In this document: piece after piece, positions 16,421-36,698 of the stretch | How the letters are laid out: every line of letters starts with the position of its first letter | Numbering within the stretch: the stretch's first letter is position 1 | Assembly (NCBI GenBank): GCA_902772915.1 | Contig: CACYCE010000035.1 | Span: 1-37,841 of the forward strand | Length of the DNA stretch: 37,841 nt | Direction: 5' to 3' | From: an uncultured Erysipelotrichaceae bacterium | GTDB lineage: Bacteria; Bacillota_I; Bacilli_A; RFN20; CAG-288 | Program-made: the position numbers and the translations under genes | Notes under the pieces: model-generated | Told to the model about the DNA's origin: nothing | What the model saw: the letters and a program-made list of their open reading frames with translations, nothing else | The model's database searches: none

Positions 16421-17791
16421 ATGAGCTTTTCTTATCATCATTTAGATAAATGGGCAACTTGCAATGTCGATTTAATAGAGGAGTGTTTAGAGAAAAATCC
16501 TAAAGCTGTAGTTTTAGTTTCCGGAGCCTCATCTTCAGGTAAATCTTATTGTGCGTCATTACTAGAATCCTTACTTAAATCTGCTTCTTATAGAGCAGTC
16601 ATAATCTCTTTAGACCAATATAATATCGGTCTATCAGGTATCATTCCTAATAAAGTTAACAAAAACTATTTCAATTCCAATATCTCCAATATGAAAGAGA
16701 TTATTAAAGTTGTTAAAAAAGTTATTTACGATGTGCCTTTCGAAAAGAAATACGATAAGGAAGTTTTAAATATTCTCTCCGAGAAATTGAAATCTTTCTT
16801 TGATTCTAAAGAAGAATTAAATAAATTCTTAGATGGTTTATATAACGAGTGGAAAGTCTTAAATTTTGATGAACCGACTGTTTACGATTTAAAAGAAGCT
16901 GCTAAAGATATCAAATCTCTATTAAAGAACAAATCTATAAATGTTAAGAAATACTCTAAAGTTATATCTGAAAGGGAAGAATCTAATCAAATTATCAGCG
17001 GCTCAGATTACGATGTAATAATAGTCGAAGGTATTTATTGCTTAGATGAAGTTCTATTAAATTCTTTAAAAGGTGTTTACACCATCAAGAATTTTATAGA
17101 CTCCAATCCCAAATCCTTATTCTTAAGAAGAGTCATTAGAGATGCTAAATCCACTTCCGCTTCTAACGTCTTTACTATTACTAATTATTTTAAATATATC
17201 ATTCCGTCTTATCAGGACACTATCTATCCTTGCAAGAGATTCGCTGATGTTGTATTTAATAATGACATGTCATTTTTAGAGATGAGAGGAGGGGATCTCT
17301 ACACCACTAAAGTAGAATTCAAGACTCTAGATAAAAATATCATCAACAAGATTAAAGAAGCTTCTACTATCAAATCAGTAACCTATCAAAAAGATACTTA
17401 CTTCTCGGTGGAAAACGAAGTTAATCAATCTAATAATTTATTGAGATTAAGATCCATATCTGAAGATAAAGGACTAACTTACACTCCTTCTTCTTTAGTC
17501 CATAAAGGCATACCTAAAAATAGAAAAGATGGAAAGATTATTAGACCTATCAATATCTTCTTAAAAGAAGGGGAATTAAATAAAGTCTGGTCATCTGAGC
17601 AAGATGTCTTAATGGATTTTGTCAGAGCGGGATTCTTCATTGGACCAATTCAAAAGAAAATTAAAACTAAATTAACTTACAACGGTCAAAATCTCACCAT
17701 CAGAGAAATAGATAACAGGGAATTCTTCGTTGAAATCGACGAACCTGAATGTGAGAAAGTTGTTAAATCTTTAGGAAGGTTAGTTAAATAA
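16421..17791 (+). CDS. Uridine-kinase-like P-loop domain fused to a CYTH-like domain
   Basis: A 456-residue two-domain protein. Residues 1-285 follow the uridine kinase/phosphoribulokinase fold: P-loop GASSSGKS (35-42), LDQYN (64-68), NFDEPTVYDL (148-157), Walker-B-like IIVEGIYCL (200-208) and RRVIRD (236-241). Residues 290-456 look like a CYTH/triphosphate-tunnel domain: KVEFK (297-301), LLRLR (340-344), LTIREID (425-431) and EFFVEIDEP (434-442), with alternating charged strands. Plant TTM1/TTM2 enzymes have the same kinase-plus-CYTH order and act on pyrophosphate or nucleotides. Substrate here is unknown. AAAGGGG is the ribosome site. A phosphatase lipoprotein gene starts 3 bases after the stop. 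Confidence 0.82.
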   Translation: MSFSYHHLDKWATCNVDLIEECLEKNPKAVVLVSGASSSGKSYCASLLESLLKSASYRAVIISLDQYNIGLSGIIPNKVNKNYFNSNISNMKEIIKVVKKVIYDVPFEKKYDKEVLNILSEKLKSFFDSKEELNKFLDGLYNEWKVLNFDEPTVYDLKEAAKDIKSLLKNKSINVKKYSKVISEREESNQIISGSDYDVIIVEGIYCLDEVLLNSLKGVYTIKNFIDSNPKSLFLRRVIRDAKSTSASNVFTITNYFKYIIPSYQDTIYPCKRFADVVFNNDMSFLEMRGGDLYTTKVEFKTLDKNIINKIKEASTIKSVTYQKDTYFSVENEVNQSNNLLRLRSISEDKGLTYTPSSLVHKGIPKNRKDGKIIRPINIFLKEGELNKVWSSEQDVLMDFVRAGFFIGPIQKKIKTKLTYNGQNLTIREIDNREFFVEIDEPECEKVVKSLGRLVK

Positions 17792-17794
17792 ATA

Positions 17795-18970
17795 ATGAAG
17801 AAATATATTCTTTTAAGTTTAATTTCTATAGGTTTATTAAGTTTGGGAAGTTGTAATTCATCTAGAATCAGTTCTACTTCAATAATTACTTCTGTTCAAG
17901 AAATTACCACTAGCATCAACGGCGTCGATAAAAAGGGCAATGTCTTTTTAAATCTAGGAATCTCTTCTTTAAATAATTTAAATGTCGTTTACGGCGATGA
18001 AGTTGAAGTTAGTTTAGGGGATTTGAAATTTAAGATGCCTTACGCTGACACCTTAACTTGTGTAGGGTATGGTAATAATGTTTTGATTAATTCTGAAAAT
18101 AGCTTATCTTTACGAGCTTGTTATGAAGCTTTCGCTTTCAATAGTGGAATCTTCTATTACGATTCTAATTTTAAAACTTATGAATATAGAGATAACAAAG
18201 GACCTAACGATTATCCAGTAACTATTAGAATTAGTGAAAAAGGGAAGTACAAAGAAGATTACGAATCTACTCATATTGCTTTAATAGAAAATTCACCTTC
18301 TATAAGTAAAGAAGTTTATTCTAACTTCAGACCATTAAGTGGAGGAAATTTAAAAGAGAATTTCCTCTTCCGCTCTTCTTCACCTATAGACGATTCTATA
18401 AATAGAGCTCAAACTGCAAATTCATTATTATCTCAATACAATATTAAATACGTATGGAATCTTTCTGATACTGCCAATGAGGCTGATTTTACTATTAGTA
18501 AAGCTCAATTTGACGTAACTAATTACACATCTTTAATGAAAAATAATTCAGTTCTATTTAATCAATTGGCATCTGAAGTTCTTTCTGATAGTTTCTTTAT
18601 TGGCTTAAAACCTCTATTTGAAACTTTATTAACTGACAAAGAAAACATTATGTTCCACTGTGATGCTGGTAGAAATAGAACAGGTATGGTTGCAGCTCTA
18701 TTAATGGCTATAGGTGGAGCTTCTTACGAAGAAATCGCTGCAGATTACATGCTTAGTTACATCAATTTAAATGGGGTAGAAATAAATAGCAACATCTACA
18801 ACCACATCAAAAAGAACACTATAGATTCTATATTCTTAAAAATGACTTCTAAATCTTCTTTAGAAGAATTAACTAAAGAAACTATACAAACTGAAGTTAA
18901 TTCCCGTCTACTTAAAGCTGGTTTAACCCAAGAAAAGTTAGATAATATAAAGATAGCAATATCTAAATAG
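17795..18970 (+). CDS. Secreted tyrosine-phosphatase-like lipoprotein
   Basis: A 391-residue surface lipoprotein with lipobox LGSC (Cys20). Residues 45-165 form a small beta domain with VVYGDEVEVSLGD. Residues 175-391 match the Y_phosphatase3-type dual/tyrosine phosphatases: NFRPLSGGNLKENFLFRSS (given as FRPLSGGN and FLFRSSSP) and the CX5R active site HCDAGRNRTG with Cys289 and Arg295. It would remove phosphate from protein tyrosine or from small phospho-compounds outside the membrane; cysteine phytases share the HCx5R loop. It lies 3 bases after the kinase/CYTH gene without a good ribosome site of its own, so translation is probably coupled. A hairpin terminator ends the operon. Confidence 0.88.
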   Translation: MKKYILLSLISIGLLSLGSCNSSRISSTSIITSVQEITTSINGVDKKGNVFLNLGISSLNNLNVVYGDEVEVSLGDLKFKMPYADTLTCVGYGNNVLINSENSLSLRACYEAFAFNSGIFYYDSNFKTYEYRDNKGPNDYPVTIRISEKGKYKEDYESTHIALIENSPSISKEVYSNFRPLSGGNLKENFLFRSSSPIDDSINRAQTANSLLSQYNIKYVWNLSDTANEADFTISKAQFDVTNYTSLMKNNSVLFNQLASEVLSDSFFIGLKPLFETLLTDKENIMFHCDAGRNRTGMVAALLMAIGGASYEEIAADYMLSYINLNGVEINSNIYNHIKKNTIDSIFLKMTSKSSLEELTKETIQTEVNSRLLKAGLTQEKLDNIKIAISK

Positions 18971-18980
18971 TTCTTAAAAT

Positions 18981-19020
18981 ATAAATGTTTAGGCATTTCT
19001 AAGCATTTATATTTTTTATT
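18981..19020 (+). terminator. Intrinsic terminator of the kinase/phosphatase operon
   Basis: A 12-bp stem, ATAAATGTTTAG / CTAAGCATTTAT (one G-U pair), 6-nt loop, then ATTTTTTATT. Confidence 0.85.
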
Positions 19021-19071
19021 GAAATAGTAAGGTCTAAAATAGAAGAAAGTAATAAAACCTGGAGGCTAATT

Positions 19072-19911
19072 ATGAAATTATATAAAGAAGGTAGATATAC
19101 AGGAGAAAGAGCTTTGTACGAGACTCACGATGCAAAAATTGAAAATTGCATCTTCGATGATGGTGAATCTCCTTTAAAGGAATCTTCTAATTTAGATATC
19201 TCCCACTCTTCATTCTGCTGGAAATATCCACTTTGGTACGATAAGAATGTTAAAGTTGAACACTCTACATTCTTTGAAATGGCTAGAGCGGGAGTCTGGT
19301 ATACACAAGATATCACTCTTAACGATGTCTTGATTTGCGCTCCTAAAAATTTTAGAAGATGCAAAAAATTAACCTTGAAAGATGTCACTTTTACTGATGC
19401 TAAAGAAACTTTATTCAACTGCGAAGATGTTAAATTAATTAACGTCTCTGCTAAAGGCGATTATTTTGGTATGCACTGTTCAAATATGAATATTGAGAAT
19501 TTAAAAGTCGATGGTAATTACGCTTTCGATTCAGCAAAAAACGCTACTTTTAAAAACTGCAAATTATTAACTAAGGACGCTTTCTGGAACTGTGAAAATA
19601 TCAATATTGAACATTCTTATATCTGCGGTGAATACTTCGGATGGAATTCTAAGAATATCACCTTAAAAGATTGTACTATCGAATCTTTACAAGGCTTCTG
19701 TTACATGGAAAATGTGAAATTGATCAATTGTAAAGTATTAAATACCAACTTGGCTTTCGAATATTCTACTGTAGATGCTGATATCACTACTAGATTGATT
19801 TCTATTAAGAACCCTAAAGGGGGAAGAATCGTCTGCAGAGGTTACGATGAATTAATTATGGAACCTAATTTAGTCGATCCTTCTAAGACTGAAATCATTG
19901 TTAAAGAATAA
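19072..19911 (+). CDS. DUF3737 family protein (right-handed beta-helix type)
   Basis: A 279-residue protein with repeating 20-22-residue strands (for example KIENCIFDD, LDISHSSFCW, KLTLKDVTF, VKLINVSA, ATFKNCKL, ITLKDCTI) that would stack as a beta-helix. The N-terminus, EGRYTGERALYETHDAKIENCIF in pieces EGRYTGERALY and KIENCIF, matches DUF3737. Cys, Trp and His are unusually frequent. No signal peptide, so it is cytoplasmic. The PatB-like C-S lyase gene starts 5 bases later, a pairing I have met before for this family, so a role with sulfur or amino-acid metabolism is a guess. GGAGG ribosome site at 19063-19067. Confidence 0.85.
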   Translation: MKLYKEGRYTGERALYETHDAKIENCIFDDGESPLKESSNLDISHSSFCWKYPLWYDKNVKVEHSTFFEMARAGVWYTQDITLNDVLICAPKNFRRCKKLTLKDVTFTDAKETLFNCEDVKLINVSAKGDYFGMHCSNMNIENLKVDGNYAFDSAKNATFKNCKLLTKDAFWNCENINIEHSYICGEYFGWNSKNITLKDCTIESLQGFCYMENVKLINCKVLNTNLAFEYSTVDADITTRLISIKNPKGGRIVCRGYDELIMEPNLVDPSKTEIIVKE

Positions 19912-19916
19912 ATAAT

Positions 19917-21095
19917 ATGGGAAAATACGATTTCAATAAAATAATTGATAGATCTAACACTTCTTGCTGGAAGTGGGATCTCCGCAATAATGAGAATGAA
20001 TTACCCATGTGGATTGCGGATATGGATTTACCTACCGCTCCTTGTGTCGTAGAAGCATTAAAAAGGAGAGTTAATCATCCTATCTACGGATATACTTATC
20101 CTTCTGATAAGTGGTATCAAGCATGGATTAATTTCTATAAAGAAAGACATAATTTTAATATAGAAAAAGATTGGTTGATTTTTTCTACTGGAGTAATTCC
20201 CACTATATCCTCTACAATTAGAAAGCTAACTACTCCTAACGAAGGAATTGTAGTCTTGACTCCTATATACAATACTTTCTTCAATTCCATAATAAATAAT
20301 GGAAGAAGACCTATAGAATCTAAATTGATTTATAAAGATGGAACTTATTCTATAGATTGGAAAGATTTAGAAGATAAATTAAGCGATAATCAAACTATGA
20401 TGTTAATCTTCTGTAATCCTCATAACCCTATAGGTAAGATATGGTCTAAAGAAGAAATTGTCAGAATCGGTGAATTATGTAAAAAATATAACGTGTTAGT
20501 AATTTCTGATGAAATTCACTGTGAATTGACCGCCCCTAATAAATCTTACACACCTTTTGCCTCAGTTAATTCTATTAATAAAGAGATATCTATTACCGCT
20601 GTAGCTCCTTCTAAAGCTTTTAATATGGCAGGACTAAATTCTTCAGCTATTATAGTTCCTAACCCCTATCTAAAAGCCAAAGTTGAAAGACAACTTAATA
20701 CCGATGAATGTGCTGAGCCTAACGTCTTCGCTTGCGATGTAGCTATAGCAGCTTTAAACGAAGGTAGAGATTATTTAGATGAATTGAGAATTCACATTCA
20801 AAATAATAGAGAATTAGTAGAGAAGTTTATAAAAGAGAAAATACCTGAAATAGAAGTAACTAAGCAAGATTCTACTTACTTATTGTGGTTAAACATCTCT
20901 AAAATAAGTAATGACTCTGATGATTTTACTTCCTTTATAAGAAAAGAAACAGGTTTATGGTTAGCTTCAGGATCTATTTATAGAGGAGATGGTAAATCAT
21001 TTGTAAGAATGAACGTCGCTTGTCCTACTTCCCTAGTTGAAGACGGATTAAATAGATTGCTTAAAGGCGTGACTTTATATAAAAATAAACAATAA
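19917..21095 (+). CDS. PatB/MalY-family PLP-dependent C-S lyase (cystathionine beta-lyase-like)
   Basis: A 392-residue class I/II aminotransferase-fold enzyme. Markers are LPMWIADMD (29-37), NPHNPIG (167-173), the cofactor aspartate in ISDEIHCEL (196-204), the PLP lysine in APSKAFNMAG (Lys233) and the C-terminal arginine in FVRMNVACP. Such enzymes cleave cystathionine or cysteine with release of thiol, pyruvate and ammonia, and some act as regulators. Cytoplasmic. The start lacks a Shine-Dalgarno site and lies 5 bases after the DUF3737 stop, so it depends on upstream translation. A long hairpin terminator ends the unit. Confidence 0.92.
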   Translation: MGKYDFNKIIDRSNTSCWKWDLRNNENELPMWIADMDLPTAPCVVEALKRRVNHPIYGYTYPSDKWYQAWINFYKERHNFNIEKDWLIFSTGVIPTISSTIRKLTTPNEGIVVLTPIYNTFFNSIINNGRRPIESKLIYKDGTYSIDWKDLEDKLSDNQTMMLIFCNPHNPIGKIWSKEEIVRIGELCKKYNVLVISDEIHCELTAPNKSYTPFASVNSINKEISITAVAPSKAFNMAGLNSSAIIVPNPYLKAKVERQLNTDECAEPNVFACDVAIAALNEGRDYLDELRIHIQNNRELVEKFIKEKIPEIEVTKQDSTYLLWLNISKISNDSDDFTSFIRKETGLWLASGSIYRGDGKSFVRMNVACPTSLVEDGLNRLLKGVTLYKNKQ

Positions 21096-21138
21096 AATTT
21101 TATTAAAAGTAAATTTATAAAAAATCATTTCAAAGCAA

Positions 21139-21178
21139 AAAGGGAACTGGCAATATTTGCTTAGTTTCCTTTATTTTT
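21139..21178 (+). terminator. Intrinsic terminator after the C-S lyase gene
   Basis: Stem AAAGGGAACT / AGTTTCCTTT (one G-U), inner stem GCAA / TTGC, then ATTTTTAG. Confidence 0.85.
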
Positions 21179-21256
21179 AGCCATTTCTTGAATTTTCGTG
21201 CATTTATATAAACTCTTGATTGTAAAAATATTATTAAAATGAAAACACTTTCAATG

Positions 21257-21284
21257 TTTACATTAATAAATATGGTGTCATAAT
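21257..21284 (+). promoter_or_regulatory. Strong promoter of the 69-residue protein
   Basis: TTTACA (21257-21262), 16-bp spacer, CATAAT (21279-21284) with TGT just upstream (extended -10). The expected start is at about 21291, the first base of a long hairpin. Confidence 0.65.
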
Positions 21285-21290
21285 ATCATC

Positions 21291-21354
21291 AACCTAAGTT
21301 AGGAGCATAACTTCCCTCTTAATTTAGGTTAAGTATCAATTTGTCGATTGGTAC
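21291..21354 (+). promoter_or_regulatory. Structured 5' leader with two hairpins
   Basis: Hairpin 1: 15-bp stem 21291-21305 with 21316-21330 (two G-U pairs), loop CATAACTTCC. Hairpin 2: GTATCAAT / ATTGGTAC (21333-21340, 21347-21354, one G-U). The ribosome site GAAAGGAGG (21356-21364) is outside both, so the hairpins more likely protect the 5' end than block translation. Confidence 0.6.
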
Positions 21355-21372
21355 TGAAAGGAGGATATTATT

Positions 21373-21582
21373 ATGAATATGTCCGAACAAGAAATCAATA
21401 AGAGAATCGCCAATGTTGAAAGAAGAATGAACACTCTTATCGATGAGATGGATGAAAGAGGTTATGTCCCTTTCGATGGCGTCTTAGCTGAAGCTACCGA
21501 AGGTGATAGACTTTCTAAAATCTATGATAGCTTATTAGATGAAAGAGATTATCTCTTAGGCGAACTCACTAAGATTAAATAA
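21373..21582 (+). CDS. Small acidic protein of unknown function (69 residues)
   Basis: A short, mostly helical, highly charged protein. The EINKRIANVERRMNTLIDEM region (5-24) and the C-terminal YDSLLDERDYLLGELTKI have heptad-like spacing, so a coiled-coil hairpin or dimer is likely. No signal peptide or membrane helix. The expression signals are among the best in the window: an extended -10 promoter, a 5'-terminal hairpin, a consensus GAAAGGAGG ribosome site 8 bases before the ATG, and a perfect terminator directly after. That implies an abundant protein. I do not recognise the family. Confidence 0.8.
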   Translation: MNMSEQEINKRIANVERRMNTLIDEMDERGYVPFDGVLAEATEGDRLSKIYDSLLDERDYLLGELTKIK

Positions 21583-21607
21583 ATCTTAGAATATCATTGT
21601 ATTTACT

Positions 21608-21636
21608 AGGAGGAGATGAAGTTCTCCTCCTTTTTT
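21608..21636 (+). terminator. Intrinsic terminator of the 69-residue protein gene
   Basis: Perfect 9-bp stem AGGAGGAGA / TCTCCTCCT, 6-nt loop, then a run of T. Confidence 0.9.
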
Positions 21637-21641
21637 CATAT

Positions 21642-21676
21642 AAAAAAAGATTCTTAGAAATTATTCCTAAGAATCT
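21642..21676 (-). terminator. Intrinsic terminator of the minus-strand 137-residue protein gene
   Basis: Perfect 10-bp stem AGATTCTTAG / CTAAGAATCT with a 9-nt loop and, on the minus strand, seven T. Confidence 0.9.
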
Positions 21677-21683
21677 CTTTTAA

Positions 21684-22097
21684 TTAAGCTACAACCTTTC
21701 CTTCAGTCATATTAGAGATGACAAAGTCGAACACAGATTTTAAATTATTAAATTTATAGACGTTGTATTGTTCTTGATGTAATTCAAATAACATGACGGT
21801 CATTTGTAAACTAATTAAAGGGAAATAGCAATAGACCTTACCGTTTTTAACATTAGCAGTAGAATAAACTTTTGAATCTTCAATAATCTTAGTTAACTTC
21901 TCTTTCTTATCTTCAGTTAACAAAGAAGCATCAAAGGAAGCACCTAAATAAATATTTCTAAAATCCTCAAAGGAATTTTTAACTTGAGTAGCGATCATCA
22001 TACCTTCGGTATACGCTAATTGGTTGTCGAATTCATAGACTCCGAAAACCCCATTTCCAAAATCCATTTTCATAGTGAGCTTCTTCTCTTCAGCCAT
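21684..22097 (-). CDS. Conserved-looking protein of unknown function (137 residues)
   Basis: A soluble protein with no signal peptide or membrane helix. The N-terminus, KKLTMKMDFGNGVFGVYEF, is strand-rich, followed by a helical middle (about 50-80) and a C-terminal part that again mixes strands and helices, ending MTEGKVVA. I recognise no family. It has a complete unit of its own: promoter TTGTAA-N17-TTTAAT upstream, a GGAG ribosome site 8 bases before ATG, and a perfect terminator after the stop. It converges on the 69-residue protein gene across 101 bases. Confidence 0.75.
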   Translation of the reverse strand: MAEEKKLTMKMDFGNGVFGVYEFDNQLAYTEGMMIATQVKNSFEDFRNIYLGASFDASLLTEDKKEKLTKIIEDSKVYSTANVKNGKVYCYFPLISLQMTVMLFELHQEQYNVYKFNNLKSVFDFVISNMTEGKVVA

Positions 22098-22141
22098 AAT
22101 ATATATCTCCTTATTTTTAATTACTTTTTATATCTTTTTAA

Positions 22142-22170
22142 ATTAAACAATAATTAATAGATAATTACAA
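22142..22170 (-). promoter_or_regulatory. Promoter of the 137-residue protein gene
   Basis: On the minus strand TTGTAA, 17-bp spacer, TTTAAT (plus coordinates 22165-22170 and 22142-22147), giving a leader of about 38 bases. Confidence 0.5.
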
Positions 22171-22181
22171 GTTTATTCATA

Positions 22182-22213
22182 CAAAAGAGGTTCCCCGGAG
22201 GGAGGGAACCTCT
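22182..22213 (-). terminator. GC-rich hairpin, possible terminator of the esterase gene
   Basis: Perfect 10-bp stem AGAGGTTCCC / GGGAACCTCT (22186-22195, 22204-22213). On the minus strand it is followed by TTTTG, so it may stop transcripts coming from the esterase gene 260 bases away. On the plus strand it instead precedes a ribosome site and a tiny ORF. Confidence 0.45.
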
Positions 22214-22242
22214 CATAGAAAGGATAGAAAGGAGATAAAAAT

Positions 22243-22260
22243 ATGAATATTCGATTATGA
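22243..22260 (+). CDS. Possible five-codon leader ORF (MNIRL)
   Basis: ATG at 22243 has an excellent AAGGAG site 8 bases upstream, itself preceded by a second AAAGGA. Translation would stop at TGA after five codons. A GC-rich hairpin lies upstream and a plus-strand terminator-like hairpin downstream. No plus-strand gene follows for 1.4 kb, so it is not an obvious leader of another gene. It could be a short regulatory RNA, or the remnant of a lost gene. Confidence 0.3.
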   Translation: MNIRL

Positions 22261-22263
22261 TAG

Positions 22264-22312
22264 AGATAAGGTGAAAGATGTTATTAAAACCTTATCTACT
22301 TTTATTATATTT
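22264..22312 (+). terminator. Terminator-like hairpin after the five-codon ORF
   Basis: Perfect 9-bp stem AGATAAGGT / ACCTTATCT (22264-22272, 22289-22297), 16-nt loop, then a T-rich stretch ending in five T. The remaining bases to 22473 (part of the 376-bp gap 22098-22473) hold nothing else I can name. Confidence 0.55.
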
Positions 22313-22473
22313 TTCTAAAAGTAAAAGAAAAGAGACGAAACTACTAATGTCCAAAAAAAGTCCCACATAGTTGTAAAATACTATATTCTATAAGTCGACT
22401 TTTACTAAAATCCTAAGATTTTCTAATTCTTTGTTATGAGAAGCTAGTGGCTTATCATCTAGGCGATAAATAA

Positions 22474-23379
22474 TTAATTTATATGTTCTTTAAAGAAGTT
22501 TGTCTGCTCTATTACAATTTTTTTAGATATATCTAAATTCATATTAACTTGGAAGTCATGTTGATATATATCATTGTTAAATTCATCTTCTTTAATAGAA
22601 TAAATAACCTCTACTCCTCTTTCTTTTAAGTGCTTATACATAGGTATTACATTTTCTTTTAAGAAATCGAAATAACCCGAGAGTAAATAAGTCGGAGGAA
22701 AAGACGAATTAATAGAATTATAAGCATCTAATAAAGGCATCAATTTATATTTTCTGAATTTACCTATATAGACATCTCCTTCAAACCCATCTTCAGTCTT
22801 TTTAGTTATCCATCTAGAAGTATCGTAATATCCGCAATTTAAAGCACAAGCTTTAACTTTTATTAAGTTGTTAACTTCCATATTAAATAGAGCTCTAAAT
22901 TTAGGATTGGATTTAATTACTAAATAATGCATTGCTAATTCCGCTCCTGCGGAATCTCCAATAACGAAGGTATTATTAATATCTAGACCGTATTTATCTC
23001 TATTTTTATATATAAAATCAAATACTTTATTAACTTCAAATAATTGAGTTGGAAACTTCTTTTCTGGCGCTAAAGAATAATTGATATTAATAACTTTAAA
23101 TCCTTGTAAAGCTAAATATGCACAATAATATTTATATACTTCTTTATAGCCGTATATAAAACCTCCCCCATGTATATTTACAATTACAGGTAACTTCTCT
23201 TTTAAAGATTTAGAAGAAGGATAAGAAATATCTAATAAATTAAAAGGGATATTTCTTCCATACTTTAAATCAGATATAACCTCTAATCCTGGAGGATATT
23301 TTAAATCTTTATCCCTGTTGTAATCAGATAAGCCTATATTTTTTCTAGCTTCTAAAACTATATCAAAATCTTTACTCAT
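22474..23379 (-). CDS. Alpha/beta hydrolase of the HSL/acetyl-esterase type
   Basis: A 301-residue cytoplasmic hydrolase. The oxyanion-hole motif HGGG is at 70-73, the nucleophile elbow GDSAG at 141-145 (Ser143), with a likely acid near GYFDFLKEN and the histidine in NDIYQHDF close to the C-terminus. The family hydrolyses short-chain carboxyl esters, and the natural substrate is unknown. Most codons are the AT-rich type typical of the window. The ATG at 23379 has no strong ribosome site in view. It stands alone between two regions of unknown genes, and the GC-rich hairpin near 22186 may be its terminator. Confidence 0.87.
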   Translation of the reverse strand: MSKDFDIVLEARKNIGLSDYNRDKDLKYPPGLEVISDLKYGRNIPFNLLDISYPSSKSLKEKLPVIVNIHGGGFIYGYKEVYKYYCAYLALQGFKVININYSLAPEKKFPTQLFEVNKVFDFIYKNRDKYGLDINNTFVIGDSAGAELAMHYLVIKSNPKFRALFNMEVNNLIKVKACALNCGYYDTSRWITKKTEDGFEGDVYIGKFRKYKLMPLLDAYNSINSSFPPTYLLSGYFDFLKENVIPMYKHLKERGVEVIYSIKEDEFNNDIYQHDFQVNMNLDISKKIVIEQTNFFKEHIN

Positions 23380-23550
23380 ACCTATACTTTACTTTACCTT
23401 TCTCAATTTAGAAAGAAAAAGATTTAAAAAGTCTTTTTATTTAAAAGATAGAAAAGTAATATTTACGCATTTTTAAATTGTATTTTTACTGTGAATTAAA
23501 AATTTTTAATATTAATGCAAAATTTGAAAGAAATATCTCGAATAAGTAAT

Positions 23551-23632
23551 GAGAAGAAAGCTAGTTCTCTAATCAGCTTATTTTTACTTCTTTAAAGCTG
23601 ATTAAGTGTCAGGTGTTCTCTCCATCTCACCC
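23551..23632 (+). promoter_or_regulatory. Structured region upstream of the 67-residue protein
   Basis: A perfect 10-bp stem TAATCAGCTT / AAGCTGATTA (23570-23579, 23595-23604) is flanked by GAGAA (23551-23555), which can pair with TTCTC at either 23565 or 23616. GGTG / CACC lies further on. No T tract follows, so this is not a terminator. It may be a leader RNA or an operator. Confidence 0.35.
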
Positions 23633-23644
23633 TATTAAAAAAAG

Positions 23645-23848
23645 ATGGATTTACATAAATTTAAGAATATGAAAGAAGAAATCAAATTAGAAATATCTCA
23701 ATCTCTCCATCGCTACTACCTAAATAAAGCTCTTATTTTAAATGATGAGCATTTATTTAAATATCACGTCTATATTCTTCAACGTCAAAAAGAAGAAGGA
23801 AAAGTTATTAATAAAAGCGAAAGAAAGAGACTATTAGAATTCATATAG
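23645..23848 (+). CDS. Small basic protein of unknown function (67 residues)
   Basis: A helical, Lys/Arg/Glu-rich protein with two amphipathic segments (about 5-22 and 33-52) and the C-terminus ERKRLLEFI. No signal peptide or membrane span. The start is uncertain: neither ATG 23645 nor ATG 23669 has a Shine-Dalgarno site, though TATTAA sits six bases before 23645 as in the leaderless genes of this window. It is followed after 15 bases by a 33-codon ORF and then the two secreted proteins, so it may head their operon. I do not recognise it. Confidence 0.6.
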   Translation: MDLHKFKNMKEEIKLEISQSLHRYYLNKALILNDEHLFKYHVYILQRQKEEGKVINKSERKRLLEFI

Positions 23849-23863
23849 AAAGGAAAAATGAAC

Positions 23864-23965
23864 ATGAATATATACATCTTGCCTAGAGCTAGTCCTAACC
23901 GCTTGCTCTGGGCGCCCTTATCTAGGTTAGAGAAAAGGAATGAATTATATGAAATTCAAATTTAA
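23864..23965 (+). CDS. Possible 33-residue leader ORF over a GC-rich structured RNA
   Basis: ATG 23864 has AAAGGA nine bases upstream. The peptide (starting MNIYILPRASPNRLLWAPL) ends 17 bases inside the next gene, so its translation would bear on that gene's start at 23949. Codons 13-18 (CGC TTG CTC TGG GCG CCC) are GC-rich, unlike the AGA/TTA-rich usage around it. The same bases form competing stems: CCTAGA/TCTAGG, CTAACC/GGTTAG, AGAGC/GCTCT and the palindrome GGGCGCCC. RNA structure may therefore be what is conserved here. An in-frame ATG at 23858 is too close to the ribosome site. Confidence 0.4.
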   Translation: MNIYILPRASPNRLLWAPLSRLEKRNELYEIQI

Positions 23966-25010
23966 TATTAAAAATAAAAAGAAAGCTCAAAACATCGCTT
24001 TAGGAAGTGTCGTTACTGCAGGGTTATTAGCTGTAGTAGGAGTGATGTCCTCAGGCTTTCAAAACTGGAATGTAGATAGTTGGTTTAAACCTTCAACTAA
24101 AGTTCAAATAATTAGCAGTAACTCCAAAGATAACAACGAGGTTAAAAACGACACAAATAATTCTAAAGACTATCAAGACATCACTAATACAGTAACTAAT
24201 TTTGAAAGCCACGGCATCAAGATGGCTTACTTTAATGAGATACCTCAAAAAGGTGATGTTACAGCGTATATTTCTTATACTGTCGAACCAGAGGCTCATA
24301 CAGGAACAATAGTTTACGCTGTAACTTGCCCTGAAGTAGAAAGTTACAAATATACAGACTATTTAGAAATAACTCACGACGAAGAAAAAAATACTCTAGC
24401 AATTAAATGTTTAAAAGCCTTCACTCATCAATTCATATTGAAGATTTATTCTGAAGAAAACCCCTCGATCTATGGTCAAATATCTATAGATTACAAGTCT
24501 AAATTACTCGACTCTGATGTAATTCTTTCAGTAAATAGTTCTACTCATTATTTTGATATTGATGTTAACAATACCCTTTCAGGAGGTTCTATATCTATCG
24601 ACGATAGCTATTATATAAGATCTTTTGCTTTTAAAGATTCTTTCATAGAACAAGTTAAACAAATATTAAATTACGAATCTATTAGTGAATCTTTCAATTA
24701 CCACGAAGCTAAATATTTCTTAGGAAGCGATCCTTCAATTATATATTCTCAAAAGATTCAATATGACGCCTATTCATTTATCCATCAATTCTACACTCAA
24801 GAAAACGACAATGACAGTTGTACTTACTTAACAGAAAAATCCGCTGATGTCATATCTAGCTTATTTGATGGAATCAATCCGGTATTTACAATTACTTGGG
24901 AAGTTGGTAGTGGAGAAGATTTAAAAACCTTTACTAGAGACGTAGCTTGGAAGATTGATTCTATCGCTGCAAGAAGTATCACTCCTTCTAACGATCACAT
25001 CATCTTCTAA
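23949..25010 (+). CDS. Secreted or membrane-anchored protein of unknown function, paralogue A
   Basis: A 353-residue protein with a basic start and one hydrophobic segment (about 15-37, IALGSVVTAGLLAVVGVMS) without a lipobox, so it is an anchored or cleaved extracytoplasmic protein. Residues 40-80 are a polar Asn/Ser/Lys linker and the rest is beta-rich. Residues 151-202 (with CL, SIDYKSKLL, VNSSTHYF) and 225-237 (SFAFKDSFIEQVK) align with the next protein. ATG 23949 is preferred to ATG 23940 because AAAAGGA ends at 23939, directly against the first ATG but nine bases before the second. I recognise no family. A hairpin with a T tract separates it from its paralogue. Confidence 0.75.
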   Translation: MKFKFNIKNKKKAQNIALGSVVTAGLLAVVGVMSSGFQNWNVDSWFKPSTKVQIISSNSKDNNEVKNDTNNSKDYQDITNTVTNFESHGIKMAYFNEIPQKGDVTAYISYTVEPEAHTGTIVYAVTCPEVESYKYTDYLEITHDEEKNTLAIKCLKAFTHQFILKIYSEENPSIYGQISIDYKSKLLDSDVILSVNSSTHYFDIDVNNTLSGGSISIDDSYYIRSFAFKDSFIEQVKQILNYESISESFNYHEAKYFLGSDPSIIYSQKIQYDAYSFIHQFYTQENDNDSCTYLTEKSADVISSLFDGINPVFTITWEVGSGEDLKTFTRDVAWKIDSIAARSITPSNDHIIF

Positions 25011-25017
25011 TTTACAT

Positions 25018-25045
25018 GCTGGTTAAAAATAAACCAGCTACTTTT
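25018..25045 (+). terminator. Hairpin terminator/attenuator between the two secreted paralogues
   Basis: Perfect 7-bp stem GCTGGTT / AACCAGC, 7-nt loop, then TACTTTTTG. It would reduce read-through from paralogue A into paralogue B. Confidence 0.65.
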
Positions 25046-25061
25046 TGAGGAGGAATAAATC

Positions 25062-25919
25062 ATGTTTCGATTATTGAATTTAGTAATGTTTATTACAACA
25101 TTTCTAGCAAATGCTAATTTCATGTCCGTGAATAAAACACCATCAAACGACCTAAAAAACCCACTTATAAAAATTAAAAAAGCCTCGGTAAATTCGTCTA
25201 CTTACAAGCTGTTTTACAGCATTTATCCAAATTGTTCAAATCCAGATATTCATTATAAAATCGAAAAAGTTGATTCCTCCTCGCCTAATGCTAGTTCATA
25301 TTATTCTTGCGTAGTTGACCAGATAGAAAAAAGCTGCACCATCACTTGTTTACAACCTAGTGATTATCAATATAGATTAGTTTTATTCGACAGAAAGAAT
25401 TCTTCTGTAAGTTGCAGTGTACTTTTAGATTATGAGCAGAAGTTACTTTACTACCCTTATATAAATGTAAATAATAGCACTCTATATTTTAATAAAGGTA
25501 ATTCTATTTATTCTAAAGGAACTATTAAATATAACGTTACAAATGAGTCATTCACTTTCAATTCTTCATTTATAAATTTCATGAAAAGCAAACTTGTTAA
25601 ATCATATTCAGATATGGAAGTAAGTAATGTTACTTACTCTTCATATTTTACTTATTCATCGTGGATGTTATTTGATCAAATGACACTTAGTTCATTCTTA
25701 AGTAAATTTAGTTGTACATATACAGTAAGTGGATATGACTCTGATGATGAATATTTCTCTTATCAAGATTCGTCTTCATTATCAATTAACGATATAAAGA
25801 ATAATAAAAGTACCTACTACCCTTTCTACAACGGGATGATTATAGGCACTTACAATTGGACATATAATTCTAAAAACTTTTACGAAAATATAGTTATAGA
25901 TTGCACTGATAAAATCTAA
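25062..25919 (+). CDS. Secreted protein of unknown function, paralogue B
   Basis: A 285-residue protein with an N-terminal signal peptide (about residues 1-20, no lipobox) and a Ser/Tyr/Asn-rich beta-type body. Residues 93-143 (ITCLQ, LLDYEQKLL, VNNSTLYF) and 163-175 (SFTFNSSFINFMK) align in order with residues 151-202 and 225-237 of the upstream protein, so the two are distant tandem duplicates. It has more cysteines than its partner (about residues 58-118), which would suit disulfides outside the cell. GGAGG ribosome site 9 bases before ATG. Its stop overlaps the end of the convergent XRE-regulator gene by 4 bases. Function unknown. Confidence 0.78.
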   Translation: MFRLLNLVMFITTFLANANFMSVNKTPSNDLKNPLIKIKKASVNSSTYKLFYSIYPNCSNPDIHYKIEKVDSSSPNASSYYSCVVDQIEKSCTITCLQPSDYQYRLVLFDRKNSSVSCSVLLDYEQKLLYYPYINVNNSTLYFNKGNSIYSKGTIKYNVTNESFTFNSSFINFMKSKLVKSYSDMEVSNVTYSSYFTYSSWMLFDQMTLSSFLSKFSCTYTVSGYDSDDEYFSYQDSSSLSINDIKNNKSTYYPFYNGMIIGTYNWTYNSKNFYENIVIDCTDKI

Positions 25920-26434
25920 TTATTTTTAGATTCTTCATTATTCTCTTCTTGTTTATTATCTAGCTCTTTAAGTTTGTAGCTAGTCCATTTTAAAGAGGAA
26001 GAAAAACCTATAATTAAACAGATTATACCTACAGCTGCTAAAGGTATACCTATATACGCTATAAACAATTTAGTAGCGCTCACTCTCTTAGATAAAGAAA
26101 CAGCTAAATCTACTATAGACCATATAATTAAACCTACTCCAACTGGAGTAAATAAAACACCAATCCATCTAATTAAAGATCTAATTAAAGGATTTTTAAC
26201 CATGTGAATGGAATTGTTATTAAATGTCTGACCTGTTTTAACATCATCTTTTAATTCATTAGAGGTGGTATGCAAAGCTGTAGCGAGCAATTCAAATTGT
26301 TCGTCAGTAGGTATTAATTTACCTTTTTCCCACGATGAAATTATTTTAGAACTAGTCTTAGTTCTCCTTGCTAATTCATCTTTAGATAGATGAAACATTA
26401 TTCTTTTTTGTTTAATTTTTTCACCGATAGTCAT
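25916..26434 (-). CDS. XRE-family regulator with two C-terminal membrane helices
   Basis: A 172-residue protein. The N-terminal Cro/C1 helix-turn-helix spans about 4-60 (LSKDELARRTKTSSKIISSWEKG in the recognition region, cut here as LSKDELARRTKTSS and ISSWEKGKLIP). Residues 82-110 and 122-146 are hydrophobic helices, and the tail is a charged Lys/Glu/Asn stretch. Such membrane-tethered XRE proteins are common in Firmicutes, and their signals are mostly unknown. It converges on and overlaps the secreted paralogue B gene, and it may be co-transcribed from the EAL-protein direction since a terminator lies between (26470-26501). The stop is TAG, rare in this window. Confidence 0.86.
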   Translation of the reverse strand: MTIGEKIKQKRIMFHLSKDELARRTKTSSKIISSWEKGKLIPTDEQFELLATALHTTSNELKDDVKTGQTFNNNSIHMVKNPLIRSLIRWIGVLFTPVGVGLIIWSIVDLAVSLSKRVSATKLFIAYIGIPLAAVGIICLIIGFSSSLKWTSYKLKELDNKQEENNEESKNN

Positions 26435-26469
26435 AAATATTTATCAACTAATTTATGATAACACATAAT

Positions 26470-26501
26470 TAAAAAAGTAGATTGACTTCACAATCTACTT
26501 T
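26470..26501 (-). terminator. Intrinsic terminator of the EAL-protein gene
   Basis: Perfect 11-bp stem AAAGTAGATTG / CAATCTACTTT followed on the minus strand by a T run. The first stem base overlaps the stop codon of the coding region. Confidence 0.88.
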
Positions 26502-28656
26502 ATAAAGTATTATTTGATACTACGTATTTACCTTTAGCGATATCTTCTAATAAGGTTTCCCTAGGAAGAGGCTTACCAAATAAATAACCCTGCAATCTTC
26601 CACAACCAGCATCTTTTAAGAAAGTCATTTCTTCTTTAGTCTCGACGCCTTCAGTTAATGTCTTCATTCCAATATCATCAGCCATATCAATTACTGATTT
26701 AATTAATGTGCGAGACTTCTCATTTTCATTAAAGCCTGATAAGAATTTCATATCAATCTTTAAAACATCAAATTCGTAGTCTTTCAAAACATTAAACGAA
26801 GAATAGCCAGAGCCAAAGTCATCTAACCACAGAGCGTAACCTTGTTCTCTTAATCTCGCAATGGCTTTATTCAAAGCTCCTAAATCATCAATCAAAGCTG
26901 ATTCAGTTATTTCAACGTGCAGCAATTGCTTAGGTACATTATATTTCTTGACTGTTTCTTCTAGAACTGAAACAGCATCCATCAATTTAAAATCTAATCT
27001 AGAGAAATTGATCGATATAGGTACTATAGGTAATTTCTTATCTAAAGCGTCTCTTATATCTCTACAGACGTTTTCCAATATCGCTGTATCTAATTTATGA
27101 ATTAAATGAGTATCCTCTAAGACCGGTACAAATTGACCAGGATTCATGAAACCGTGAACAGGATCTATCCATCTAGCTAAAGCCTCACATCCGCACAATT
27201 TAGAATCGTTAGCCCAGACTACGGGTTGGTAATAAGCTTTAATCCAACCTTGCTCTATCGCGTTATCTATATTGTTAACTACATACTGCTTCATATAGAA
27301 AGCATCGTGCATCTTCTTGTCGAATTCTAAATAATATTTATCTCTTCTATTGCTAATTACTGAACAAGCGTATCTAGCCTTATCTATAGCTAAATGCGGA
27401 TCTTCATCTCTATCGGCGAAGACATATCCACCAAATTTAATTTCAATTCTAATATCTTTATCGATAGAAGCGACATCTTCATGCAATCTATCTACCTTAT
27501 CTTTAAAAGTTGATACATCAGCTAAAGCTAAGAAATGATCATCAGATAATCTACAAGTATAATGAGGGTCAAAATAAGAATTAATTAATCTTCCTATTTC
27601 TTTAAGTAATAAACTACCTTGCTTGAACCCTTTTTGATCGTTGTAAATCTTAAAGTCATCAATATTCATAAAGAGATATATTTTAGTGCCGATTTCTAGA
27701 TTAGGATTTAAGATTACCGCTTCCATCTCCTTCATGAAGTGATTAGAAGAATGAATATCTACTAAAGAATCGTAATTAGCGATTCTCTCTAGATTCTCAT
27801 CTTTTCTAGCTTCTCTAACACGCTGATTGTAAATAGAGATACAAATCATAGTTAAGGAAATAAAGAAAGTAATATAGTTAACTTCATCACCAGGTTGGAA
27901 CAAATAAGCTGGATTTTTAACGGCGGAAGATTTAATCAAGAAATAGAAGCCTAAGAAGATCGATCCTAATAACCCTATAGATACATAAGGTTTCCAAATT
28001 AATAGACAGCCTACATATATACTCATGGTTAAGAAACACATTATCTCTTTACCAGAATAATAATCGGAATAAGAGACCTTCATACCGAAGACTAAACAAA
28101 TAGAAGCGAATAAGGTAATGACAACCATCGCTAAAATTTGGTTGTTCTCTTTCTTTTTAAATCTGTATAATGAGCTTCCAAATATAGATAGACCGAAGAA
28201 TATAGATAGCACATATAAAAGAATTAAGAAGATATTTCTAACTTGGTTAGTAGCGGAGAAAGATTCAATAAAGATTAAAAATCCCCAAATGACGCTAAAT
28301 GAAGCAAACACAGAATTGATAATTAAATCAGCTTTAGGAGATAATTTGTTAGAAAAGTAAGTTAAACAGAAAACAGTTAACCCTAAGCCAACAAATAGCA
28401 TCAGCCAGAAGTTAGATGTGTAATCAAATAACAATTTCCCAATATCCGTATTAGGATTAGCGGATATATAAGGAATCATATCTTCAAAGGTTCTTCTAAG
28501 AATCATCCATATTTCTAATATGACAATGACAATCGCCATAAAAACACCGCTTCGTATGCTAGCTTCATTCAAATAGCCTCTAACATATTTTGAATTGCGG
28601 TATATACCTAGAAGATTAAAGAAAAAATCTTTAATTTTAATTAAATTTTCTTTCAT
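26500..28656 (-). CDS. Membrane c-di-GMP phosphodiesterase with degenerate GGDEF and intact EAL domains
   Basis: A 718-residue protein: eight predicted helices (about 34-53, 83-101, 112-131, 142-160, 174-192, 206-221, 226-242, 258-276) form a sensor, then a GGDEF domain (about 290-440) and an EAL domain (about 455-705). The cyclase motif is SDDHF (371-375) rather than GGDEF, so it should not make c-di-GMP. The EAL domain keeps Glu491 (CEALAR), Asn550 (SINFS), Glu582 (VEITES), Asp612/Asp613 (LDDFGSGYSS), Lys633 (LKID), Glu669 and Gln689, so it should hydrolyse c-di-GMP. The ATG has no ribosome site; its promoter places the start of the mRNA on the ATG. Confidence 0.93.
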   Translation of the reverse strand: MKENLIKIKDFFFNLLGIYRNSKYVRGYLNEASIRSGVFMAIVIVILEIWMILRRTFEDMIPYISANPNTDIGKLLFDYTSNFWLMLFVGLGLTVFCLTYFSNKLSPKADLIINSVFASFSVIWGFLIFIESFSATNQVRNIFLILLYVLSIFFGLSIFGSSLYRFKKKENNQILAMVVITLFASICLVFGMKVSYSDYYSGKEIMCFLTMSIYVGCLLIWKPYVSIGLLGSIFLGFYFLIKSSAVKNPAYLFQPGDEVNYITFFISLTMICISIYNQRVREARKDENLERIANYDSLVDIHSSNHFMKEMEAVILNPNLEIGTKIYLFMNIDDFKIYNDQKGFKQGSLLLKEIGRLINSYFDPHYTCRLSDDHFLALADVSTFKDKVDRLHEDVASIDKDIRIEIKFGGYVFADRDEDPHLAIDKARYACSVISNRRDKYYLEFDKKMHDAFYMKQYVVNNIDNAIEQGWIKAYYQPVVWANDSKLCGCEALARWIDPVHGFMNPGQFVPVLEDTHLIHKLDTAILENVCRDIRDALDKKLPIVPISINFSRLDFKLMDAVSVLEETVKKYNVPKQLLHVEITESALIDDLGALNKAIARLREQGYALWLDDFGSGYSSFNVLKDYEFDVLKIDMKFLSGFNENEKSRTLIKSVIDMADDIGMKTLTEGVETKEEMTFLKDAGCGRLQGYLFGKPLPRETLLEDIAKGKYVVSNNTL

Positions 28657-34279: not shown

Positions 34280-36475
34280 TTAATCTTTAGTAAAAGTGAT
34301 ATATGTAGAGTACACTCCCAAGTCATTATTAATCTCACCGACGTTAAATGACCATCCTAAATCTATTCCGCTATTCAATTTAGAGCCGTTGACAAATTGA
34401 AGAGCATATTTAGACATCGAGAAGGAAGAACCTTCGAAGAATAGCCCTGTATCGCTAAAGCGAGAGGTAGTTCTAATAGTATCTTCAACATCATCTCTAA
34501 TCAATTGAACTAAATTATATTCTTGGTAGTCAGTACCTAAGACAGAAATTCTATCAACGCTATCGAAAGAATTAGACATCGCTAGTTCCATACTACCCAA
34601 GGTTACATCGTTGTAGAAAGGTAAATTGTAATCACCCTTACCATCTTTTTGAACCAACCTAGAATCAATATGATAAATTCTTATACCAGGTTTATTTTGG
34701 CCGTAATCGTAATAAGTACAATCAAATTCATTCAGGCCTTTAGGAGAGAATAATTCTACTAAGATATATTCATCAAACATGGAATTATATTCATTCCAAG
34801 AAGGAGTTAACAATACAAATTCCCCACTGCTTTCTGAATCTTTCAATTCAATAGTAACAGTGTCTTCAGGTATGTAAACTTTTCCCCAACCAAGAGCTAA
34901 TCTACTATAAGGGTCGTGGTCGCCTAAATTATTTACTTGCAATGTAAATCCACCCATAGGCAAATAATTACCACTGTAATCATAAAGATCTTCTAACCCG
35001 AAGATGTGACCAGATTCATGGCGGAAGGTATGAGAATCTACAATTACGTGCGACAAATCTCCATCTCCATATTTAGATCCTGTTCTAGATATAGTTTTAG
35101 GATTGTTGAATTCATACATATCTTCATAGCTAACCCACATATAATGACCAACTTTTCTAGTAGAACTAATCTTAGATGGGATAGAAGATCTAATTACTTT
35201 AGGCCAGAAGTTTTTATTAGTTATAGGATTATCTAATCTCACACCAGTGTGATTGGAAGGACAGCCATAAATGGCACTTACTCCATCCAAATAGCCATCG
35301 TTATCGTAGTCGTAATCGTGCCAATCTTCTTCAGGATTATTGCTGAAATAAGACTCTACTGCTCTTTCCACTATAGTCTTAATTTTATGTTCTTCGTAAC
35401 CGTCCTCAACTTCACTAGATGAGAAACCTACATCAAACCATTCAGCAACCTTACCATTGAGAGTAATTTTACCTCTAGATTCAGTTTCATACCAAGTTTT
35501 AACTGAATGCCATCCAGTTTGTTCTCTAGTTCCAAAGAAAGCGGTATTTAAATCTTGTTTAACATTGTCCTTCTTGTCAGAAGAAGTTATGTAATTACTA
35601 GTATCAGTAAAATTCAAAGGTAAAACTAACCATTTCAAATCACCTTGAGAAGGCGAACGAGTGAAGTAATATTGATCGTAATAATCCTCGTAATTTTGAC
35701 TTAATTCTTGAGGAGAAACTGAAAGTTCTGCAACGATATTAATGTCGAAATAAGTCTGTTTAGTAATTCCATTATAAGTGTAAGAGACGCTAACTGGATA
35801 TTGACCTAAGGTATCTTTATCAACTTTGGAGGTGTCAAATTTCAATTTACTAGTTCCAATCTTTTGAACAAAACCAGAAGTGTAAGAGACGCTAACACTA
35901 GCAGAAGGAACTACTTCTTTATTAATTAAATATTCCTTTCTGCAATTAATTATGGATATGTTATCCAACTCTTTCTCTTTAATTGAGAAATGAATTAAAT
36001 CGAAAGTTGATTCATCTAAAGACAAAGAAGGATCGTCAGTCGTGATATATCTAACTTCAATATCTCCTTGCTTCTTACCTGTTATTAAACCATTTTCACT
36101 AATAGAAGCAATATTTTCATCTGAAGTCATCCAAGTGAAACCTGCTTGAGTATATTCACCTATATCTTCTAAAGTTACATAATCGATTTTTCGTAAAGAT
36201 AATTGATAAGTTTCTTCAGTAACTATACTTCTTCTCTCCGCCTTAATTCTAATGTAGAATTTTCTACCCCTTTCATCGTAAGAAACTAAAGATGTTTTAT
36301 ATTCGTATTGTGAACTTGATGTTGATATCGACGTATTTCCGAAAGAAGAAATCTGAGAATTGATGCTGTTTGAAGAATTAAGACCACTACCAAAAGTAAA
36401 TCTAATAGATTTACAGCCAGTTAAAAGTAGAGTGCACGAGGCAATTAAAGTACATAATTTAATTGATTTTCTCAT
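34280..36475 (-). CDS. Secreted M6-like zinc metalloprotease lipoprotein with Ig-like domain
   Basis: A 731-residue lipoprotein. The signal peptide ends in LTGC (Cys21), followed by a Ser-rich linker. A BIG2-type Ig-like domain lies about 95-150 (FTWMTSDENIASISENG). The protease region has the zinc motif HESGHIFGLEDLYD, with HExxH at 486-490 and a downstream Asp. DYDYDNDGYLDG (about 387-398) looks like a calcium loop, as in M6 (immune inhibitor A-like) peptidases. It should act at the cell surface on host or dietary protein; the target is unknown. A TTG two codons upstream (36481) is possible, but GGAG spacing favours ATG 36475. Confidence 0.88.
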   Translation of the reverse strand: MRKSIKLCTLIASCTLLLTGCKSIRFTFGSGLNSSNSINSQISSFGNTSISTSSSQYEYKTSLVSYDERGRKFYIRIKAERRSIVTEETYQLSLRKIDYVTLEDIGEYTQAGFTWMTSDENIASISENGLITGKKQGDIEVRYITTDDPSLSLDESTFDLIHFSIKEKELDNISIINCRKEYLINKEVVPSASVSVSYTSGFVQKIGTSKLKFDTSKVDKDTLGQYPVSVSYTYNGITKQTYFDINIVAELSVSPQELSQNYEDYYDQYYFTRSPSQGDLKWLVLPLNFTDTSNYITSSDKKDNVKQDLNTAFFGTREQTGWHSVKTWYETESRGKITLNGKVAEWFDVGFSSSEVEDGYEEHKIKTIVERAVESYFSNNPEEDWHDYDYDNDGYLDGVSAIYGCPSNHTGVRLDNPITNKNFWPKVIRSSIPSKISSTRKVGHYMWVSYEDMYEFNNPKTISRTGSKYGDGDLSHVIVDSHTFRHESGHIFGLEDLYDYSGNYLPMGGFTLQVNNLGDHDPYSRLALGWGKVYIPEDTVTIELKDSESSGEFVLLTPSWNEYNSMFDEYILVELFSPKGLNEFDCTYYDYGQNKPGIRIYHIDSRLVQKDGKGDYNLPFYNDVTLGSMELAMSNSFDSVDRISVLGTDYQEYNLVQLIRDDVEDTIRTTSRFSDTGLFFEGSSFSMSKYALQFVNGSKLNSGIDLGWSFNVGEINNDLGVYSTYITFTKD

Positions 36476-36698
36476 AATCAATCTCCTTTATATATTTTTT
36501 AAAAGTATAAAAATAAGTTCGTCTTTTGTTCTTATTATTATTGCATAATAATATATTCATATCAAACTTAGGATGAATATCAATTCTCAATGATTTACCC
36601 TATCAGCAATGTGCAAGATATCATTTTTAAAAAATAAAATAACAAAGTTACTAATAATAAAAATATGTTAAACTTTTTAAAGGAAAGGTGCTTGTTTT

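Follow-up and report, generated by a model that had tools for sequence, protein, structure and literature searches.

The described systems closest to the locus analyzed here are the filamentous phages (Tubulavirales), the Big-domain surface proteins, and, for genes neighboring family members at two loci only, diversity-generating retroelements (DGRs). About 30% of inovirus species are reported to possess an "atypical" morphogenesis gene with an N-terminal TMD (PMC6813254), and gut gram-positives, namely Enterocloster, are known to secrete inoviruses (PMC10061712). The Enterocloster inoviruses resemble the carriers of the protein family described below in having gram-positive gut commensal hosts, and they differ from them in that these hosts are clostridial and the phages are Zot-annotated (PMC10061712). 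Neither the fold nor the notion of Ig-like proteins at the surface is new. What is new, relative to the libraries that we searched, is the family itself, its carriage on elements, and its pairing; a literature search, which was not exhaustive, found no paper describing the family.

The stretch of DNA subjected to our analysis (hereafter, the window) comprises 37,841 nucleotides of a contig from an uncultured Erysipelotrichaceae bacterium (CACYCE010000035.1). Two of its ORFs, P0001 and P0002, lie on the same strand with a gap of 51 bp and are preceded by a small ORF, P0003. The features of this locus are as follows:

23645..23848, + strand: P0003, a small ORF of 67 aa, homologous to small ORFs of member-carrying elements
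23849..23948, + strand: intergenic leader with a hairpin between P0003 and P0001 (-23.8 kcal/mol, z -2.03, moderate only)
23949..25010, + strand: P0001, 353 aa with the second ATG as start, membrane-anchored family member
23994..24050, + strand: N-terminal TM segment of P0001 (hydropathy peak 2.14 over 19 residues)
24054..24086, + strand: membrane-proximal motif GFQNWNVDSWF of P0001, common to element surface proteins
24207..24500, + strand: predicted Ig-like domain of P0001 (residues 90-187 of 356)
24978..25007, + strand: C-terminal family end of P0001 (I..........I.F type), from the alignment
25018..25038, + strand: hairpin between P0001 and P0002 (region 25008-25061, z -1.94)
25062..25919, + strand: P0002, 285 aa, family member with a short N-terminal export signal and without the C-terminal I.F end
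25158..25439, + strand: region of P0002 matching the Ig-like domain of P0001 (approximate, from the BLASTP alignment)

The full ORF of P0001 spans 23940-25010 (+) and encodes 356 aa; its second ATG at 23949, the start already chosen in the original prediction, has the better ribosome-site spacing by eye. Downstream, an XRE-type HTH gene with TM segments (25916-26434, -) is convergent with P0002 and overlaps it by 4 bp. The GC contents of P0001 (0.321) and P0002 (0.280) are not unlike those of neighboring genes.

The two proteins had been proposed to be homologous from a series of motifs recurring in the same order. Indeed, CL, DYKSKLL / DYEQKLL, VNSSTHYF / VNNSTLYF, and SFAFKDSFIEQVK / SFTFNSSFINFMK follow one another in P0001 / P0002, and BLASTP aligned the pair at E 5e-10 with 29% identity over 131 aa. 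The Smith-Waterman score of the ectodomains was 141, a value reached neither by 2000 global shuffles (maximum 96) nor by 2000 local-window shuffles (maximum 113). In addition, an independent family profile, made from 31 relatives with both window proteins left out, gave E values of 5e-31 for P0001 and 1.9e-15 for P0002; among the other window ORFs the next best of 93 stood at E 0.038, and none of 1000 shuffled copies did better than E 0.062. Profile similarity, one of the two points on which the original prediction had staked this homology, is significant for both proteins. Since the matches cover positions 3-340 (P0001) and 54-285 (P0002) of the 343 in the profile, the relation exceeds the stretch first noticed. 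Judged by sequence comparison, P0001 and P0002 both belong to a single uncharacterized family, within which they have diverged. As to their N-termini, described beforehand as anchored in one and cleaved in the other, P0001 has a clear TM segment and P0002 a short and weaker hydrophobic one (hydropathy 1.44); the difference holds, and cleavage of P0002 is putative.

We obtained an AlphaFold model of P0001 from a 10-row alignment of the window proteins and relatives, in which seven strands occupy residues 92-185. Its ten-residue blocks from 121 to 180 average pLDDT values of 71-85, against an overall mean of 45.7 and a poor remainder; the model is weak outside about residues 106-187, and the C-terminal half is without a confident model. 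Prediction from the single sequence was poor (pLDDT 34.9). Foldseek returned mostly Ig V-type domains as the best PDB matches, 4 of them at E <= 0.001, and VIA-align gave Z values of up to 5.5 over residues 90-189, which are middling by the tool's own note. The shared core is thus predicted to be an Ig-like beta-sandwich, modeled on P0001, with P0002 placed by alignment. Such a predicted sandwich on an exported protein is what the family has in common with Big-domain surface proteins, and many members bear a P.nA signature that we take to resemble Big_2. The family differs from them by its single domain and family-specific C-terminal region, and all 10 members scanned fell below the curated cut-off of every Pfam Big model (best, Big_8 at E 0.13 in one member).

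Members mostly measure 285-465 aa; at the N-terminus they have, by eye, a TM segment or a signal resembling a lipobox. Their core pattern is Y.v.P.nA...C..pF...S..np...DY..K, and the C-terminal I.F end that P0002 lacks is conserved in most full-length members. One member, at a fixed chromosomal site in genome G013 (L010:1291-2386), is split into two ORFs, apparently by a frameshift. The original prediction of an unrecognized extracytoplasmic family is supported. No family in Pfam, NCBIfam, PHROGs, or PADLOC covered P0001 or P0002, ten family members had no significant match in Pfam, and a search of PDB sequences with the family gave no match. Likewise, tblastn of P0001 against phage and plasmid collections gave no match, scans of viral contigs with family members revealed no relative, and a pattern scan of contigs with P0001 yielded 8 pattern matches with no relative among them. 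Weak library matches of the window proteins to Vasohibin (E 0.062), DUF4179 (E 1), and SecF (E 0.043) were ignored.

The copy number that the original prediction had proposed to count is two in the window's own genome, both inside the window, and zero in the other genomes of the genus (0/4, with 5 searched in all). A single-protein query found a member in 10 of the 23 genomes of the bacterial family. At the level of the order, profile A1 detected the family in 39/279 genomes and 13/56 genera, and at that of the class, profile A3 gave 29/395 genomes, part of which are N-terminal-only matches. Relatives at 8 loci belong to uncultured Firmicutes/Bacilli MAGs. Within the order, the distribution of the family is patchy.

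The original prediction also placed small ORFs and structured leaders ahead of the pair. P0003 does precede it. Leader structure proved weak to moderate, with a z of -0.80 for the RNA fold of 23535-23645 besides the values listed above. Rfam had no match in the window. A search of the 23 own and family genomes with the 549-bp leader region found no strong second copy; matches at E <= 1 were listed in all 23, and those besides the self match were short (best E 2.2e-4). A hairpin with a CCGCTT loop, common to the window leader and locus L056, was dropped, as its matches look random when all loci are scanned.

Among 2321 ORFs, phmmer matched P0003 to ORFs of L056 (E 4e-4), L048 (E 0.014), and L118 (E 0.031), with shuffle z values of 10.3, 5.1, and 8.0, respectively. 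All three homologues lie <=3.3 kb from a family member, a linkage to be read with the fact that they were found in loci picked for the family and that two are rows of the order-wide model. In a search of 273 genomes of the order, the only strong matches came from the window genome, G062, and G156, which also supplied the model rows; outside these genomes nothing fell below E 5e-4, and a weaker match in G146 (E 0.014) sits directly upstream of a family member. By these matches, P0003 is element-type and belongs to the same element gene set as the family. A 79-aa ORF of the element found in the window's own genome (see below) was not supported as a P0003 relative, with 294/2000 shuffles scoring as well.

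The genomic contexts of family members were examined for five element markers, namely a membrane P-loop ATPase, a large exported protein (c13), a rolling-circle Rep, a tyrosine integrase, and a reverse transcriptase. The sample comprised 49 loci with a full member, that is, 57 fetched regions plus the window, minus 9 without one (L082, L111, L120, L121, and L123-L127). At least one marker occurs in the fetched flank of 18/49 loci and none in 31/49, counts that include near-duplicates (L043/L063 and both L058 copies), short contigs, and an integrase in L075 that may be a host recombinase. In L055, a T2SSE-type ATPase (E 1.4e-22) is found with small TM ORFs upstream. On contig C14 of genome G024 (L203/L204, 17629-38753), a 10,542-bp unit occurs twice in perfect tandem repetition, with a further 41 bp: positions 17629-28211 repeat exactly 10,542 bp onward, in a run of 10,583 bp. 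Within each unit are two tandem family genes, encoding 354 and 321 aa and separated by a 60-aa ORF, together with an integrase and an ATPase. Given that the contig was assembled from a metagenome, the repeat may stem from a circular molecule that the assembly rendered as a dimer; the unit is defined either way. In addition, a 348-aa member differing by 5 residues (by eye) is present in genomes of two families (L043 and L063), with an integrase beside each copy.

The window's own genome harbors a related element. A broader ATPase profile (A8), which found relatives of the element ATPase in 43/273 genomes of the order, led to contig C54 (L200, 1-10476); neither A5, the narrower ATPase profile, nor A6, the profile of the large protein, had a match in this genome. 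On the 10,476 bp of C54 there are an XRE-like gene (by eye) and small ORFs. Two larger genes encode a surface protein of 652 aa that weakly matches Big domains and an exported protein of 526 aa whose C-terminus has, by eye, a TM segment and a basic tail. The contig also carries the ATPase (E 2.4e-44), a Rep_trans protein (E 5.5e-19), and a tyrosine integrase (E 2.8e-21) cut by the contig end. This is a nearly complete integrative element, and no P0001-type gene is present among its 10,476 bp. Rep_trans was found in L115, L148, and L200, and of these only L115 has a family member as well within its fetched flank; no Rep was recognized in the L058 unit.

The carrier elements, known here from their genes, recall filamentous phages. 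They and the own-genome element are similar to these phages in size (~10 kb in two cases) and in having an integrase, a TM P-loop ATPase, short TM ORFs, and, in some, a rolling-circle Rep; the G024 unit and C54 are both integrative units of phage size with an integrase of their own. One difference lies in the ATPase, which combines a P-loop with one or more N-terminal TM segments and matched neither Zot nor any informative PHROG. Its hhalign comparison with true Zot gave 26% probability over 17 columns, confined to the Walker A stretch, close to the 22% over 25 columns of an unrelated PhoH control. Zot was not found in the own genome; across the order it was detected in 29/273 genomes at E <= 0.01, with 9 above the cut-off, and three of those nine (L138, L141, and L144) look PhoH-like by eye. 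Searching PDB sequences with the ATPase returned four weak unrelated rows, and phage records and viral contigs gave no ATPase relative besides one weak tblastn match (E 0.3). The element Rep has distant relatives in 8 records of the phage collection, 7 of which are small gut virus genomes; the P0001 family has none in the phage records or viral contigs searched.

Two of the loci with family members, L056 and L060, also contain a DGR (L056:5085-5483 and L060:9487-9781), recognizable by a reverse transcriptase and by TR/VR repeats with mismatches at adenines. The TR lies beside the reverse transcriptase gene and the VR at the 3' end of an anchored protein gene, and 16/16 mismatches in L056 and 17/20 in L060 fall at TR adenines. 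The diversified target is a neighboring anchored protein and not the P0001 family, and no DGR was found in the window. These neighbors suggest that the elements compete over recognition.

In the tree of the family, P0001 groups with L003, L005, and L047 (support 98/91), apart from the members at a fixed chromosomal site that are described below. L003 (L063) is integrase-linked, L047 has element-type small basic ORFs as neighbors, and L005 lies between other genes on a short contig. Given this grouping of P0001 among element-type members, the element-type character of P0003, and the presence of a related element in the own genome, the window pair is probably an element-derived cassette. Our preferred reading, to which we assign a rough probability of 0.58, is that P0001 and P0002 are a diverged pair of surface proteins, that P0001-P0003 form a cassette derived from an element, and that the Ig-like domain is displayed or released for surface binding. 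The family travels partly on ~10-kb integrative elements in this order of gut Bacilli, whose gene set combines XRE regulators and small basic ORFs with surface proteins, a membrane P-loop ATPase, a tyrosine integrase, and, in some, a rolling-circle Rep. The P0001-P0002-P0003 cassette would have come from such an element and either stayed behind in the chromosome or been moved there, and the Ig-like domain would act outside the membrane, tethered in P0001 and released in P0002. Candidate binding partners would be a host receptor, a partner cell, or the particle of a sibling element. We infer the derivation, topology, and binding function of the cassette; surface binding is probable, with indirect support from the N-terminal hydrophobic segments, the predicted Ig fold, the carriage on elements, and the DGR neighbors. 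Counting against the cassette reading, about 8 kb on each side of the window pair contain no integrase, ATPase, Rep, or reverse transcriptase that would mark an intact element, the P0003-type ORF being the sole trace; the own-genome element lacks a P0001-type gene, 31/49 loci are unmarked, and the GC content is unremarkable.

A bolder extension of this reading, which we regard as conceivable yet well short of even odds, is that the order harbors uncharted filamentous-virus-like elements, in which the P0001 family would serve as Ig-like host-interaction (tip or exclusion) proteins, with a DGR-hypermutated neighbor in some, and the window pair would be a cassette that was kept. The family spans an order of uncultured gut Bacilli, yet has no counterpart in the four libraries named above, and it occurs near small integrative elements that did not turn up in the collections of phages, plasmids, and viral contigs that we searched. 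If these elements are filamentous viruses, recognition of the host or superinfection exclusion would be a natural role to propose for their Ig-like proteins, and the copies of the DGR would offer a direct way to learn which surface is under pressure.

It is rather unlikely, in our estimation, that the two are resident host surface proteins, i.e., a vertically kept adhesin or envelope-maintenance protein that elements picked up from their hosts. In a sister genus, a member does occupy a fixed position in the chromosome, next to the genes for transketolase and L-serine dehydratase; the transketolase cluster was seen in 8 fetched loci, and L010 and L011 have the same neighbors (gene names by eye). 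A resident host role is likely there, and these fixed copies would show hosts keeping such proteins. The unmarked 31/49 loci and the lack of element genes next to the window pair also fit this explanation. Against it, the family is missing from the other four genomes of the window's genus and is patchy in the order, P0001 stands apart from the fixed-site set (98/91), and P0003 is element-type.

The original prediction called the neighbors diverged tandem duplicates, of which adjacency and homology stand; the tree neither establishes nor rejects that they are sisters. A recent tandem duplication would have produced P0002 from P0001 in this lineage, with fast divergence and loss of the anchor and the C-terminal end, and the anchored and released forms would then share one ligand. 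This does happen in the family, since the two L058 members are sisters (97/90), so that the formation of tandem pairs was probably not a single event. Forcing P0001 and P0002 into one clade costs 4.8 log units and is not rejected (AU p 0.078). The best tree, however, sets P0001 with L003, L005, and L047, and P0002 adjoins this group with weaker support (85/90). As those relatives come from other genomes, any duplication that gave rise to P0001 and P0002 would be old. A very long path separates them in the tree (4.19 changes per column), and the long branch and odd letter make-up of P0002 leave its place in the tree unsure. We consider a recent duplication unlikely.

Improbable, to a greater degree, is an immunity or exclusion pair, with which the host would block related elements or phages at its surface by means of captured anchored and released proteins. 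The retention of element-type surface proteins beside a related element in one genome agrees with it in a general way only, and PADLOC matched P0001, P0002, and P0003 to 0 families and to no defense model. Finally, that the likeness of P0001 and P0002 is an artefact of low complexity in secreted proteins rich in Ser, Asn, and Tyr is scarcely credible, for although P0002 is rich in these residues (0.161, 0.102, and 0.102, respectively), the global and local-window shuffles and the independent profile contradict it.

Apart from the pair itself, a GF..W....W(F) motif follows the N-terminal TM segment of element surface proteins in L048, L057, L076, L077, L111-L115, and L121, as well as that of P0001 in the window (24054-24086). 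These proteins have otherwise different bodies, and the motif is possibly a shared sorting or assembly signal. In L111 (4717-10760), four tandem anchored proteins share the N-terminal motif within one element, apparently through local expansion. Elsewhere in the window, an ORF at 34280-36481 (-) encodes a lipoprotein-like product that contains the HExxH motif as HESGH; by eye, this is probably a secreted metalloprotease.
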